Shown in pieces: positions 681 through 21,894 of a DNA stretch of 25,406 nt. Below the pieces are notes generated by a model that was not told where the DNA came from, did no database searches, and saw nothing but the letters and a program-made list of their open reading frames with translations. This DNA is from a virus. How positions within the stretch are numbered: position 1 is the stretch's first letter; every line of letters begins with the position of its first letter. The stretch covers positions 1 to 25,406 of the IMG/VR virus record IMGVR_UViG_3300046169_000019. One strand, 5' to 3'. The position numbers and the translations under genes were made by a program.

Positions 681-956
681 CTCGTCTACTGCCTAACCAT
701 TGTCTGTCCATTGCGACTCAACCTGAGAGCCACTACAGCCGTCTAAAGAGCTAATCTTCAGCAGCAACAACAGAACACTGTTGAGGGAGACATGAGTTCT
801 GAGGTTGCTACTGAAGGCTAACTACTGAGGGACGGTAGATACCACTATTGTTCTTCTTATGGTCTTATTCTTATGTTCTCGGATGTTTTCGAGTCAGGCA
901 GTGTCAGTGTCATTAGCAGCACTGTAATCCAGTGTGTGACGGCTCGTGCCTGTAGG

Positions 957-984
957 TATCTCTAAAGGGTGGACAAAACTGTTT
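957..984 (-). promoter_or_regulatory. Phage RNA polymerase promoter-like motif upstream of the tail gene
   Basis: The minus strand reads AAACAGTTTTGTCCACCC followed by TTTAGAGA, matching five other intergenic copies in the window with one inserted T in the downstream box. It points toward the tail gene at 253. The CACCCTTAGAGA core resembles in layout the CACTATAGGGAGA core of T7-family promoters, with a melting/initiation segment after CAC. Promoter function is inferred. Confidence 0.65.
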
Positions 985-1248
985 TATCTTAAGTAATAGC
1001 TTATGCCTCTGAGTAGACCCCAGGTAGAACCTAGGTTGACTCAGTGGTCACACTAATAGTGGCTATTGTTATACGATGGGAGTAATGTGCTAGGTGGTGT
1101 TGAGATGGACAGTAAGCAATCCTAGGAGACCTCGCTGTCTCCACTAGTGGATGCTACTGTCCTCTCTTCACCTCCACTAACTTCTTCTTATCATCCGTGA
1201 ACAGCAAAGTAAGACAGCTACCATACAACAATGATTATCACCTGTATC

Positions 1249-1264
1249 TAATACTTAAGTATTA
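1249..1264. repeat. Perfect 16-bp palindrome TAATACTTAAGTATTA
   Basis: An uninterrupted palindrome in the gene-free region about 160 bp downstream (in transcription sense) of the DUF3310 gene. A related half-palindrome (TCTTAAGTAAT) occurs near 987-997, just before the promoter motif. A dimeric regulator site is plausible, but nothing in the window identifies a binding protein. Confidence 0.5.
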
Positions 1265-1424
1265 CTTAGGTTATTTACTGCAATAATGCATAACTAATAT
1301 AGCTATAAGTCATGTGTTCTTAGGTCTCCTCACCAGTAAAATATGCACTGTGTCAATCCTGGCATAAACCACTGAATAAGGAACCCAAGAACACCTATGA
1401 ACTATATGCTCACCTTCACTATCT

Positions 1425-1772
1425 TTAGTCTACTTTTGATTGCAATTGATAGCTTGCGATTAACCTCGTCAGATACCAATCGGCCTTCTGGAGGTCTTCC
1501 AAGGACTTCCCTTTCCTCTCGTACCTCCACAGATACTTGAGGCAGTTACCCTTACAATAACCATTGAATGCTTCAGGGGTCATTGATTCTTCAATAGCCT
1601 CTATGCACTCTATCTTGCCACTGTAGTGGTCAGGGTGGTTGACCATGTCTACTTCTGTATGGCTGCCACCCTCTTCTTCCTCGGCTACCAGGGCTTCATA
1701 CTTTGATGTTATTGCAGGGAATTTCTTTCTTAGGTTATCCCAGTCTTGTGGGGTTGCATCGTTGATACTCAT
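1425..1772 (-). CDS. DUF3310 protein (T7 gp1.7-like, possible nucleotide kinase)
   Basis: This 115-residue protein carries the DUF3310 signature in its second half: VNHPDHYSGKIECIEAIE, then GYCKGNCLKYLWRYERKG and DLQKADWYLTRL. The family is widespread in phages and includes, as I recall it, T7 gp1.7, a nucleotide kinase active on dTMP/dGMP. The first 45 residues, including a run of glutamates, are unlike the core and may be a flexible extension. The ATG overlaps the TGA of the upstream gene in an ATGA arrangement, with AAGGAG just ahead, so the two are translationally coupled. It is the last gene before the gene-free region. The family assignment is firm; the enzymatic role here is inferred. 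Confidence 0.85.
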   Translation of the reverse strand: MSINDATPQDWDNLRKKFPAITSKYEALVAEEEEGGSHTEVDMVNHPDHYSGKIECIEAIEESMTPEAFNGYCKGNCLKYLWRYERKGKSLEDLQKADWYLTRLIASYQLQSKVD

Positions 1773-5335: not shown

Positions 5336-6247
5336 TTAATCGGCTGATAAGCCTTTGAAAATGTGTGCGATAACATCCACAGTCCATCCGTTGCCTAACA
5401 TCTTGTATCGCTGTGTGTTAGACACTCCTTCTGTGTAGTTGTCGGGTACAGTTTGTAGACGTTCGCATTCGATGGGTGTTAGCTTTCTGAAGTGTGAAGA
5501 GGGTCGGGATAATTTCGGCCTTAGAGTAGCCCTAGTGTCTTCAAAATAATTATAAGGAACACCTTTGTAGATATTTGCCGTTAAAGTAAAGGCTTTTTCT
5601 TTATCAGGTGTCTGTGTGTACCCATCAGCCCTGCGGCTACCTGCTTGGGCCCACTTGTCGTTACCTCTCTCCATGTATGCCACTGCTTTAGCAGAGTGGA
5701 AGTGTTCTGCACCTATCTGGTGATAGTCCTCAAGTATATCTTTGAGTAAAATACCCTTGTCATCTGGCTGCTCATCAAAAGGAATGTTAGTCCAGTACAG
5801 TCTCTGTCTATTCTGTGCGGACACAAGGTTACTGTTAATAGCGACTGGTTCGACACCAAGTATTTCTGTTATCACATCCTGTGACTCTTGTTTCATACTT
5901 ACGTTTTCTAGTAAGAAATACTTTGGCTTACACTCCTTAACTAATCGTGCAAATTCAAAAAACAATTTAGACCTAGGGTCATCAAAGTTGAGCCTCTGTC
6001 CTGCAAAACTAAATCCCTGACAAGGTGAGCCACCTATGATTAAATCAATCTTATGACCATCAAATGTCTCTGGATAAGACACATCCTGTACATCACCTAC
6101 ATGGATTATGTCTGGGTAGTTTTTCTTTGCTATCTCCATTGCGTACTTATCAATCTCAGATGAAAAATACTTATCTACTTTTATACCTAATTTTTCTAAT
6201 GCGATTCGCCCACAGGCCATCCCATCGAATAAACTCAATACGTTCAT
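5336..6247 (-). CDS. C5-cytosine DNA methyltransferase
   Basis: A 303-residue protein with the Dcm/HhaI-type motif order: motif I (LSLFDGMACGRIAL, residues ~4-17, SAM binding), motif IV (GGSPCQGFSFAG, ~73-84, with the catalytic cysteine), motif VI (LLENV, ~113-117), motif VIII (QNRQRLYW, ~146-153) and motifs IX/X (RKLTPIECERLQ; MLGNGWTVDVI). It methylates cytosine C5 in a short recognition sequence that cannot be read from the protein. No cognate restriction enzyme gene is adjacent, so it is an orphan enzyme, possibly protecting phage DNA from host restriction. A good Shine-Dalgarno (AAGGAAG) precedes the ATG. By eye it contains no CCWGG sites, unlike its flanking genes, which suggests later acquisition. 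Confidence 0.95.
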   Translation of the reverse strand: MNVLSLFDGMACGRIALEKLGIKVDKYFSSEIDKYAMEIAKKNYPDIIHVGDVQDVSYPETFDGHKIDLIIGGSPCQGFSFAGQRLNFDDPRSKLFFEFARLVKECKPKYFLLENVSMKQESQDVITEILGVEPVAINSNLVSAQNRQRLYWTNIPFDEQPDDKGILLKDILEDYHQIGAEHFHSAKAVAYMERGNDKWAQAGSRRADGYTQTPDKEKAFTLTANIYKGVPYNYFEDTRATLRPKLSRPSSHFRKLTPIECERLQTVPDNYTEGVSNTQRYKMLGNGWTVDVIAHIFKGLSAD

Positions 6248-12230: not shown

Positions 12231-13077
12231 GATGCCTCCCTAGTTGCTTCAAGTTTAGACATGATGTTCTGGAGTGAACTAGGTTGTGCGTGGACATATT
12301 TAGCAGTAGTCGCTTGAGATTTATGTCCTAAGATTTTACCTAGTGTGATTGCATCAACATTGAACTCCATAGCTAACCTAGTTGCACAAGTATGGCGCAG
12401 TACGTGAAAGACATAATGTTCATCGCCCCTTGCTAGTGCATCCCTTGCTTCATTCCAAGTGTCGTAAAACTTTCTATGTGAGTAAAACTTTGATGGACAG
12501 TTGTCTAATTTAGATAATGCCTGTTGTGCCTTTATATTCAGCGGTACAAGCCTTTCGTCACCGTTCTTGGTGTTAGCAGTGTGATGAACTGACCGCAGTC
12601 AGAAAGCGTTCCTGATGTCTTCTTGGTATCTTCGTTGTTGATACCGACAATCTCACCTAACCGCATTCCAGTGTTCACCCCCAAGGTGACAAAGTCAGCC
12701 ATCCAAGGGTGGTCAGAGTCTGCTAAGAACTCTGTGAGGTCTTTGACTTCAGTATCACTAAAGAACCTAGGTCTACTGTTACGTGCCTTCTTCCATCGAA
12801 CCTTGGGTGCTTGGGTCATTATCTCTTGTTCTACTGCCATGCTAAAGACAACACTAAAGCAAGCTAAGTATCTGTTAATGGTTGTGTCTTTAAGACCTTG
12901 TTTAGACAGATGGTCCATAAAGGCGTAGATGTCAGAAGCCTTAAATTCATCTAAAGGTTTAGACTCAAAGTCTTCAAAGTTACTTAACCTTTGCACCATA
13001 AAGATACAATCGTTTAAGTATTTGTCTTTCCAAAGACGGTGTGCATTTTTCGCTAAGAATTTATTTAATGTTTCCAT
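12227..13077 (-). pseudogene. int: Tyrosine integrase, split by one frameshift
   Basis: Frame one runs from ATG 13077 to a stop at 12538 and holds an N-terminal SAM-like core-binding domain and the first catalytic Arg (TGMRLGEIVG, R139). After about codon 168 (near 12574) homology continues in another frame to TGA at 12227. That frame begins NTKNGDERLVPLN, then has FHVLRHTCATRL (H225, R228), LGKILGHKS (H252) and AKYVHA (Tyr261). Rejoined, the protein is 283 residues, a normal length, with every catalytic residue present. The join restores the strand ITLLNTKNGDER, consistent with one lost base. A sequencing error, a genuine inactivation or recoding could each explain it. No slippery heptamer is visible. 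The tRNA and repeats at 13543-13706 are its probable attachment region. Confidence 0.9.
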
Positions 13078-13629: not shown

Positions 13630-13706
13630 GGGCCCATAGCTCAGCTGGTTAGAGCAGTCGACTCATAATCGATTGGTCGTAGGTTCAAGTCCTACTGGGC
13701 CCACCA
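13630..13706 (+). tRNA. tRNA-Ile2 (anticodon CAT), with encoded CCA
   Basis: A complete cloverleaf: acceptor GGGCCCA/TGGGCCC, D stem GCTC/GAGC, anticodon stem GTCGA/TCGAT with loop CTCATAA, T stem GTAGG/CCTAC, discriminator A and CCA. A CAT anticodon could be Met or Ile2. The pattern GACTCATAATCG...TTGGTCG with loop TTCAAGT matches bacterial tRNA-Ile2, whose C34 becomes lysidine and then reads AUA. The G1-C72 pair rules out initiator Met. It is the only gene on the plus strand and lacks an evident plus-strand promoter. It is therefore probably part of the attachment site captured from a host tRNA gene, though it could also be functional. Confidence 0.93.
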
Positions 13707-20710: not shown

Positions 20711-21894
20711 TTATGATGCTGCAAGACCAGTAATCTTTCCGCTATCAGCAAACGAGCTGTGCTTCAAGCTAACTTCACCCAATACAAAATGAGTGTCAGC
20801 ATCGCCAGTCTTAGCCAATAGAGTACGGCTGAACGGACGTAGTACACACTGCTTAAACATCGTTGGGTCAATCAGGTAAGCTTCAGTAGCTAATTGATTT
20901 CTGTTCAGAAGGACTCTGACAGTACCAAATGGAGTTATAAGTACCTCCACAGCTGAGGTTACAGATTTGCTGTTACCAAAGTCACGAGTTTTGCTTGAAC
21001 CTGTAGCAAAGTCTTTAACACCTAAAGCATCTTTAGGAGAAATCATTAGTACAGTTGGGTCAGAACCATTGGTGTAGCAGTTTTGGTGTAGAGACAATAC
21101 GTCTGCTTCAGTCAATGCATCATTTGAATCTGTACAAGCTAACGAAGTAGTAATCATGCTAGAAGCTGATTTCATTTGACGGTTTACTTCAGCAGCACCG
21201 CCATCGACAGCAGCAGAACCTGCAGCACCACCACCTGCGTGGCCAACCATAGCTGCTTCTACGTCAAGCTTAAGATTTTTTAAAGTCTTAGCTAGAGCGT
21301 ATGCAGTTTCTTTTGCACGACCATGGGTCTTAACAGCATCAACTGTACCTGCAATCTTGAATGCTTCGCTGATAATCTGAGTGCGGTTGTCACGTACAGT
21401 AGGCTGAGAAACAGCAGTTACAGAGGCATCGCCACCTTCTGATAATGTGTTTGAAGCCGACCCTGAACGCAATGTATCCTCGAGCCACTCGAATGTACGA
21501 GCAGATACTTTTTCACTCTTGATAAGAGTTTGGAAAGGGGTAGAACTCACTTGTGTTCAAATAGGCTCGTTAGTTCCTATTCCGTCCTTTAGGGACTGCT
21601 GTATGTTTCCATACAGGTCAGACTATATCTTCATCCTCTGTAAAAAGAGGAGCTAGGTGCTTCCACTCACTTGAGTGTACTCCCTTTCGGGATAGTCGTT
21701 GAACCTTCCTCATGATATGAGGCTCGGCTGCTGATTGTCGGCAGCTACCACGCTACTACGAGTTTCCAGCAATTCTCCTAGGTACAATCCCAGATTACTC
21801 TGAGACGGCCCATTTATTTAGGCGAGATAGATGCGATACTTTGCGAAACGTCTTCGGCAAGGCCCACGGTTTGGTAAGATTGTAATGTAGCCAT
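20711..21894 (-). CDS. Major capsid protein (SU10/DUF5309-like), split by a group I intron
   Basis: The coding sequence is exon 1 at 21894-21820 (25 codons) joined to exon 2 at 21547-20711 (279 codons with stop), giving 303 residues. Exon 1 reads MATLQSYQTVGLAEDVSQSI and ends ASISP. The join makes ISPSSTPFQT, matching the conserved 'ISPTDTPF' block at this place in DUF5309/SU10-type capsid proteins. Without splicing, exon 1 meets a TAA two codons into the intron. The rest (RTFEWLEDTLR, KTHGRAKETAYALAKTLKNL with KLDVEAAMV, TVRVLLNRN, YLIDPTMFKQCVLRPF) fits the family's HK97-like fold. AAGGA precedes the ATG. Both exons are required, so capsid production depends on splicing. Confidence 0.94.
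21548..21819 (-). ncRNA. Group I intron (IA-like), 272 nt, in the major capsid gene
   Basis: Helices read from the minus strand: P1, exon GCCU (21823-21820) with intron GGGC (21811-21808), giving the U-G pair at the 5' splice site; P2, CUCAGA/UCUGGG (21804-21789); P3, UGUAC (21786-21782) with GUACA (21680-21676); P4-P6 strands AAUUGCUGG and CAAUCAGCAGCC; P7, GACUA (21697-21693) with UAGUC (21625-21621) inside the conserved GUUCAACGACUA and AAGAUAUAGUC; an extra UCCC-GAAA-GGGA hairpin between P7 and P3, typical of subgroup IA; and P9, CUGUAUG-GAAA-CAUACAG. The intron ends in G (21548). It holds no homing-endonuclease gene. The join restores the capsid frame, which independently supports both splice sites. 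Confidence 0.96.

Follow-up and report, generated by a model that had tools for sequence, protein, structure and literature searches.

An apparently mobile, endonuclease-less group I intron in the major capsid gene of an uncultured tailed phage

In an uncultured tailed phage, the gene for the major capsid protein is interrupted after codon 25 by a group I intron of IA type that carries no endonuclease. Comparison with capsid genes of related viruses suggests that the intron is mobile and that it spreads most likely via a trans-acting factor. To this reading as a whole, the group I intron included, we assign a probability of about 0.88. The window analysed here, taken from a virus record, spans 25,406 bases and is a fragment of a bacterial virus that has not been cultured. 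It carries a T7-like replication set on the minus strand (DNA polymerase A, primase/helicase, endonuclease I and single-subunit RNA polymerase), and a SU10/LUZ24-like head module surrounds the intron (SU10_portal, a scaffold-like protein, SU10_MCP and SU10 adaptor). The source is an uncultured tailed phage that combines these two modules. As an earlier note on this DNA had claimed, the interrupted gene is the major capsid gene (SU10_MCP, PF17236, E=2.2e-61). Its closest cultured relatives, Bruynoghevirus LUZ24 and kin, share only ~33% identity with it, and at least 80% of exon 2 is covered by one place in 270 of 277 cultured capsid-relative records. Megablast of the window against cultured phages gave only pieces of the intron and of a tRNA among the matches listed. 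A search of GTDB genomes with the portal protein gave one match, to a contig of a Gammaproteobacteria MAG (L167), which is too weak for naming a host.

The covariance search proposed in the earlier note matched Rfam Intron_gpI (RF00028) at 21830-21599 (-) over the full model (1-253), with 81.3 bits (E=1.7e-19), above the gathering score of 50. Splice sites were located by enumerating all U/...G/ pairs that keep the capsid frame (slashes mark splice sites). One solution was left, with U21820 as the last exon 1 base and splice borders at 21820/21819 and 21548/21547, exactly the 272-nt interval that the earlier note had given. The insertion is in phase 0 and lies inside a conserved motif. Removal of the intron yields ...SIASISP/SSTPFQT in the capsid reading frame, restoring the block ISPSSTPFQT as had been predicted, and the predicted spliced junction is ...TCTCGCCT joined to AGTTCTACC. 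A near-identical virus (L001, 99% in exon 2) is intronless and reads SIASISPSTTPFQT straight through; further intronless relatives are L003 and L005-L007. The same intron is present in L002 (99.6% identity) and L004 (96.7% identity). All testable defining features of a group I intron and of the IA layout are present, and we conclude that the element is a real group I intron. Coordinates are collected in Table 1.

Table 1. Positions of the exons, the intron and its predicted structural elements in the window.
Feature	Position	Strand	Basis
Exon 1, major capsid gene, codons 1-25, MATLQSYQTVGLAEDVSQSIASISP	21820..21894	-	ATG, AAGGA upstream; same reading in intronless L001
Candidate co-conversion footprint: TCGCCT at exon 1 end vs AGCCCA in the clade's intronless alleles	21820..21825	-	8/12 window/L001 differences
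Group I intron, IA layout, 272 nt, no ORF	21548..21819	-	RF00028 match; unique frame-keeping U/G solution
In-frame UAA, intron codon 2	21814..21816	-	Stop ahead of catalytic core
P1: exon GCCU + first intron A (21823-21819) / guide UGGGC (21812-21808); U.G at 5' splice site	21808..21823	-	Exon -4 covaries
P2, 8 bp, two-sided changes in 6	21787..21806	-	Forms in sequence, holds in 23 introns
P3 5' strand CUAGG, partner 21653-21657	21777..21781	-	As drawn, counted in 23 introns
P4 (21766-21771 / 21729-21734) around P5 (21738-21761)	21729..21771	-	As drawn, counted in 23 introns
P6 + P6a	21703..21728	-	As drawn, counted in 23 introns
P7 5' strand GACUA, partner 21621-21625; guanosine-binding region	21693..21697	-	Invariant in 23 introns
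P7.1 hairpin, two-sided changes in 4/4 pairs	21681..21692	-	Counted in 23 introns
P7.2 hairpin, two-sided changes in 4/5 pairs	21664..21677	-	Counted in 23 introns
P3 3' strand CCUAG	21653..21657	-	As drawn, counted in 23 introns
P8	21634..21651	-	As drawn, counted in 23 introns
P7 3' strand UAGUC	21621..21625	-	As drawn, counted in 23 introns
P9, 7 bp, two-sided changes in 6	21599..21616	-	Counted in 23 introns
P9.1	21584..21596	-	As drawn, counted in 23 introns
P9.2	21560..21581	-	As drawn, counted in 23 introns
Omega-G, last intron base, 3' splice site 21548/21547	21548	-	Frame-keeping splice solution
Exon 2, major capsid gene, SSTPFQT... to stop	20711..21547	-	SU10_MCP PF17236 E=2.2e-61

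No reading frame was found within the 272-nt intron, in agreement with the claim that it lacks an endonuclease, and none of the homologues translates the 272 bases. In all 43 distinct capsid introns listed, an in-frame stop falls within the first 11 intron codons, before the core. An Rfam scan of the whole window matched RF00028 and one tRNA only; with no match to any group II model, a group II intron was rejected. IMG/VR was also searched for spliced cDNA, and the junction pattern TCGCCTA... matched the relatives L148, L162 and L164. All three differ from their intron-bearing kin at the flanks, and a different intron is retained in L162, so these matches look like DNA alleles lacking the intron and not spliced RNA. 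Annotators should be aware that a gene caller overlooks the 25 codons of exon 1 and places the capsid start at a GTG within the end of the intron.

The P1-P9.2 structure was drawn by hand, including P7.1, P7.2 and the P3/P7 pseudoknot, and pairs were counted on 23 related introns. Across this set, 98.7% of cells are paired. Two-sided changes were found in 34 of 77 pairs, compared to a mean of 19 after column shuffling (0 of 500 shuffles as high), and the count dropped to 1-7 on sliding one strand. The fold z-score of the intron is -3.4. Most two-sided changes lie in P2, P7.1, P7.2 and P9. P3 and P7 are invariant and paired in 23/23 introns, the other helices either covary or are invariant, and the U.G pair at the 5' splice site is present in all 23. 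While all of the helices named in the earlier note do form, the single extra hairpin that it placed between P7 and P3 proved to be two, P7.1 and P7.2, which lie between P7 and the P3 3' strand and both covary. By these two hairpins the intron belongs to subgroup IA, with IA2 as the likely best fit among IA1, IA2 and IA3. Two points tell against the reading: P1 has just 4-5 bp, and a P10 is difficult to place.

Exon and intron bases also change together. At site 25, exon base -4 and the guide covary among alleles (G-C, A-U, G-U). At site 107 (exon ACN GCG U), all alleles listed have A, G or U in the guide opposite a threonine wobble N of U, C or A, respectively. It is difficult to account for synonymous exon positions that follow a base of the intron other than by pairing of exon and intron, suggesting that splicing is under selection. 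The intron is very probably functional, as judged from sequence. By the chemistry of group I introns, the late capsid transcript would fold into P1-P9.2, and the end of exon 1 (...GCCU) would dock on the guide GGGC. A guanosine held at P7 would then attack after U21820, and the freed exon would attack after omega-G21548 to give the joined exons ISP/SSTPFQT. The UAA at intron codon 2 may keep ribosomes off the catalytic core.

Within the window's lineage, introns at site 25 are more alike than the coding sequences that carry them in 89 of 91 pairs. This holds for every pair with coding identity below 80% (81/81), for which the medians are 87.6% in the intron vs 65.2% in the coding sequence, with third codon positions at 43%. 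L214 shows the same contrast, with 92% identity in the intron vs 72% in the capsid protein. The capsid tree shows at least 11 state changes at site 25 and at least 10 at site 107, and intron presence differs between near-identical phages.

The flanks of the insertion are consistent with transfer at the DNA level. The coding sequences of the window and L001 (909 nt) have 12 differences, 8 of them in an 18-nt stretch at the insertion (coding nt 70-87), and flank differences likewise cluster at the insertion sites of L041/L093 and L075/L148. The upstream serine codon is AGC vs TCG, one synonymous codon with three changes, and the intronless alleles of the window's clade have A instead of the required U at -1. 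These clusters are co-conversion-like, the trace expected if gene conversion carried a few exon bases. In T4, it is established that exon sequence is co-converted when an intron homes (PMC2988022). The differences could partly be changes in the intronless alleles, however, and the L001 3' flank also differs from L005/L007. Taken with the identity values, the flanks suggest a mobile element that has moved from one divergent capsid gene to another; the simplest route would be gene conversion at the DNA level, leaving short footprints in the exons.

The earlier note regarded the intron as exceptional in this family, but dozens of uncultured relatives carry one. Among contigs picked by their portal protein, blind to introns, 16 of the 46 with a complete capsid gene have one to three group I introns in it. 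Over all loci, insertions occur at eight positions (codons 7, 19, 25, 59, 107, 222, 224 and 225), each of which follows the U/G rule and has a guide that can be read. Lengths range from 240 to 320 nt among the distinct capsid introns examined, with no ORF in any. An RF00028 scan of 46 whole contigs (776,731 bases) gave 32 matches, all 32 of which lie in the capsid gene by coordinate comparison; some of these contigs were chosen for their introns, and the portal-chosen ones show the same capsid-only pattern.

Another 23 contigs were identified with a DNA pattern describing how introns of this type begin at the 5' end. Capsid proteins checked from these contigs are only ~35% identical to the window's but belong to the same Pfam family, and their genes have introns at homologous positions: codon 25 phase 0, after the P of I-S/A-P, and in some also codon 107 phase 1 and codon 222 phase 2. 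A third capsid lineage (L200/L221, 34-39% identity to the others) also has a codon-25 intron. A single lineage of all site-25 introns was rejected by the AU test (p=0.016), a result weakened by long branches. Since by this test the divergent introns at site 25 and those of the window's lineage fall into separate groups, repeated occupation of the position seems likely.

Group I introns in capsid genes are not essentially unknown, as the earlier note had it. In the mycobacteriophage LittleE, splicing of a capsid-gene intron was shown by RT-PCR and N-terminal protein sequencing, and the lactococcal phage Tuc2009, as cited in the same paper, also has a group I intron in a capsid subunit gene (PMC3706429). 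The LittleE element is likewise a probable group I intron in a tailed-phage major capsid gene, with U before it, G at its end, and intronless relatives. However, it is 819 bp long with a LAGLIDADG-like gene, whereas the window's intron has 272 nt and no ORF, and it occupies one site in one phage of a different type, whereas eight sites are occupied here across many alleles. For Tuc2009 the likeness, according to that citation, is the location in a capsid subunit gene. The intron of the BAKA/Optimus tail gene is also similar, being 265 bp long, endonuclease-free and in a virion structural gene (PMC3706429), but it is in a tail gene, at one site in two phages.

The nearest cultured matches to the window's intron are 71-79% identical over part of it. 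The genes that they occupy or adjoin encode thymidylate synthase, DNA polymerase, primase/helicase and RNA polymerase, and several of the matches come with HNH genes. T4 introns of the td/nrdB/nrdD type (IA2) share P7.1/P7.2, U.G at the 5' splice site and omega-G, but are in nucleotide-metabolism genes, not in capsid genes. The td and nrdD introns of T4 encode endonucleases. Exon co-conversion on transfer is a further likeness to the T4 introns (PMC2988022). Compared to homing group I introns in general, the window's intron lacks the endonuclease, and the signs of horizontal spread and flanking co-conversion are present.

The Pfam families HNH, HNH_3, GIY-YIG, LAGLIDADG_1 and T5orf172 were absent from the intron-bearing contigs searched, which are partial, and no free-standing nuclease of these five families was found near the capsid genes. 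The contigs are fragments, and a trans endonuclease may lie outside them or belong to another family. With no endonuclease in the intron and none of the five families on these contigs, spread would most likely depend on a trans factor, such as a free-standing nuclease encoded at another locus of the genome or by a co-infecting phage. Collaborative homing, in which an ORF-less intron is paired with a free-standing nuclease, has been described (PMC3984707). As in that system, the capsid intron is ORF-less and its site is conserved and could be cut by a free-standing nuclease, but no such nuclease was found near the capsid genes here.

We rank homing in trans first, ahead of reverse splicing, which is possible but rather unlikely. 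In reverse splicing, free intron RNA would use its 4-6-nt guide to insert behind a GCCU or CGU of the abundant capsid mRNA, and reverse transcription and then recombination would follow; the route, with its requirement for 4-6 complementary bases, is set out in a review (PMC3984707). Introns with a GGGC guide are found at sites 25, 59 and 224, all with exon GCCU, introns with mostly GCG.. guides are found at positions ending CGU (107, 222 and 225), and one change splits the two guide types in the tree of the window's lineage. The failure to find an endonuclease and the restriction of the introns to the gene expected to yield the most abundant late mRNA also fit. However, the guide could not dock properly on the clade's intronless alleles (AGCCCA, A for U at -1), and the intron arrived together with TCGCCT, as under DNA gene conversion. 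Furthermore, reverse splicing needs a reverse transcriptase, none of which was seen here, and the introns of most sites group in a clade of their own, so that movement from one site to another is rare. It is doubtful that SU10-type capsid genes are a dedicated intron trap, to which endonuclease-less introns are confined, with codons 25, 107 and 222 reused independently in lineages ~35% identical and further guide-matching positions colonised not by endonuclease homing but by a reverse-splicing-like movement that the guide directs within the late mRNA of highest abundance.

The lack of an ORF in every distinct capsid intron would also be expected of dying remnants, once mobile with an endonuclease and now merely inherited and being lost. 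We consider this improbable, as compensatory change maintains the pairs and the guide, indicating selection to splice, and recent transfer is evident. It is very unlikely that the intron persists because it serves as a regulatory switch delaying the synthesis of capsid protein. Its location in a late structural gene is suggestive, and both a phage-intron switch model and a T4 intron whose splicing is growth-dependent have been discussed (PMC11878797). However, only about one third of capsid genes carry introns, presence varies between near-identical phages, which argues against a conserved regulatory role, and introns at eight different positions would all have to play the same role. We found no evidence for the checkpoint on late capsid synthesis that the earlier note had suggested. 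Finally, metagenomic contigs are the sole source, but an assembly artefact or translated insertion can be dismissed given the in-frame stops, the intronless alleles and the recurrence of this intron at an identical base in contigs that are independent of each other (L002, L004 and others).

The intron is of a type already known, and it is the distribution that is unusual. A phage group in which all group I introns are capsid-only, endonuclease-less and at many recurrent positions was not found described in full-text searches of an open library, a weak negative. A 2025 survey reported that most split phage genes function in nucleotide or DNA metabolism and asked why; its switch and weapon models are built on enzymes and endonucleases (PMC11878797). 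The present phage group is an exception to this pattern, as the group I introns found are all in the capsid gene and none has an endonuclease. Near-identical pairs of phages with and without the intron, with covarying guides, make the movement and cost of endonuclease-less introns directly testable.

Three introns are present in one capsid gene of L054 and L061, and L082 has two and the start of a third; with L198 and L224, these genes have up to three group I introns each. The gene with three introns in Staphylococcus phage Twort is orf142. Exon skipping has been described for orf142, a tail tube gene, and a single gene of Twort has three introns (PMC11878797 and its reference 34). Both cases involve several group I introns in one late structural gene, but orf142 encodes a tail tube and not a capsid protein, is from one phage, and other Twort genes have introns too. 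By this analogy, the multi-intron capsid genes of L054, L061, L082, L198 and L224 are candidates for exon skipping.

Several other features were observed. The window has a tyrosine-integrase gene at 12240-13077 (-), in a phage with T7-like replication genes. Read by eye, its frame is broken near 12560-12600 and the C-terminal part runs on in another frame, indicating either a pseudogene or an assembly error. About 550 bp from this gene, on the strand opposite to the genes, is a tRNA-Met (13630-13706 (+), anticodon CAT) with 85% identity to Salmonella/Escherichia phage tRNAs, possibly an attachment site. In the intronless relative L168, an HNH protein of ~290 aa is encoded at 892-1758 (-), directly adjoining an integrase gene. 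This gene, the one match obtained with the five endonuclease families, lies ~10 kb away from the portal gene. It was considered as a mobiliser of the introns and not accepted, as nothing links it to them. A C-5 cytosine DNA methylase (PF00145) is encoded among the early genes of the window at 5336-6247 (-). Downstream (3') of the capsid gene, tblastn gave weak capsid-like matches (23-28% identity) in L094 (13725-14045), L103 (6074-6517), L123 (7199-7753) and L132 (14168-14638), perhaps a paralogue or chance. Intron-like 5' ends (GCCT/...GGGCCG...AGTAATYT) follow long reading frames of other genes in L175 (7051 (+)), L230 (4022 (+)), L174, L199 and L204.
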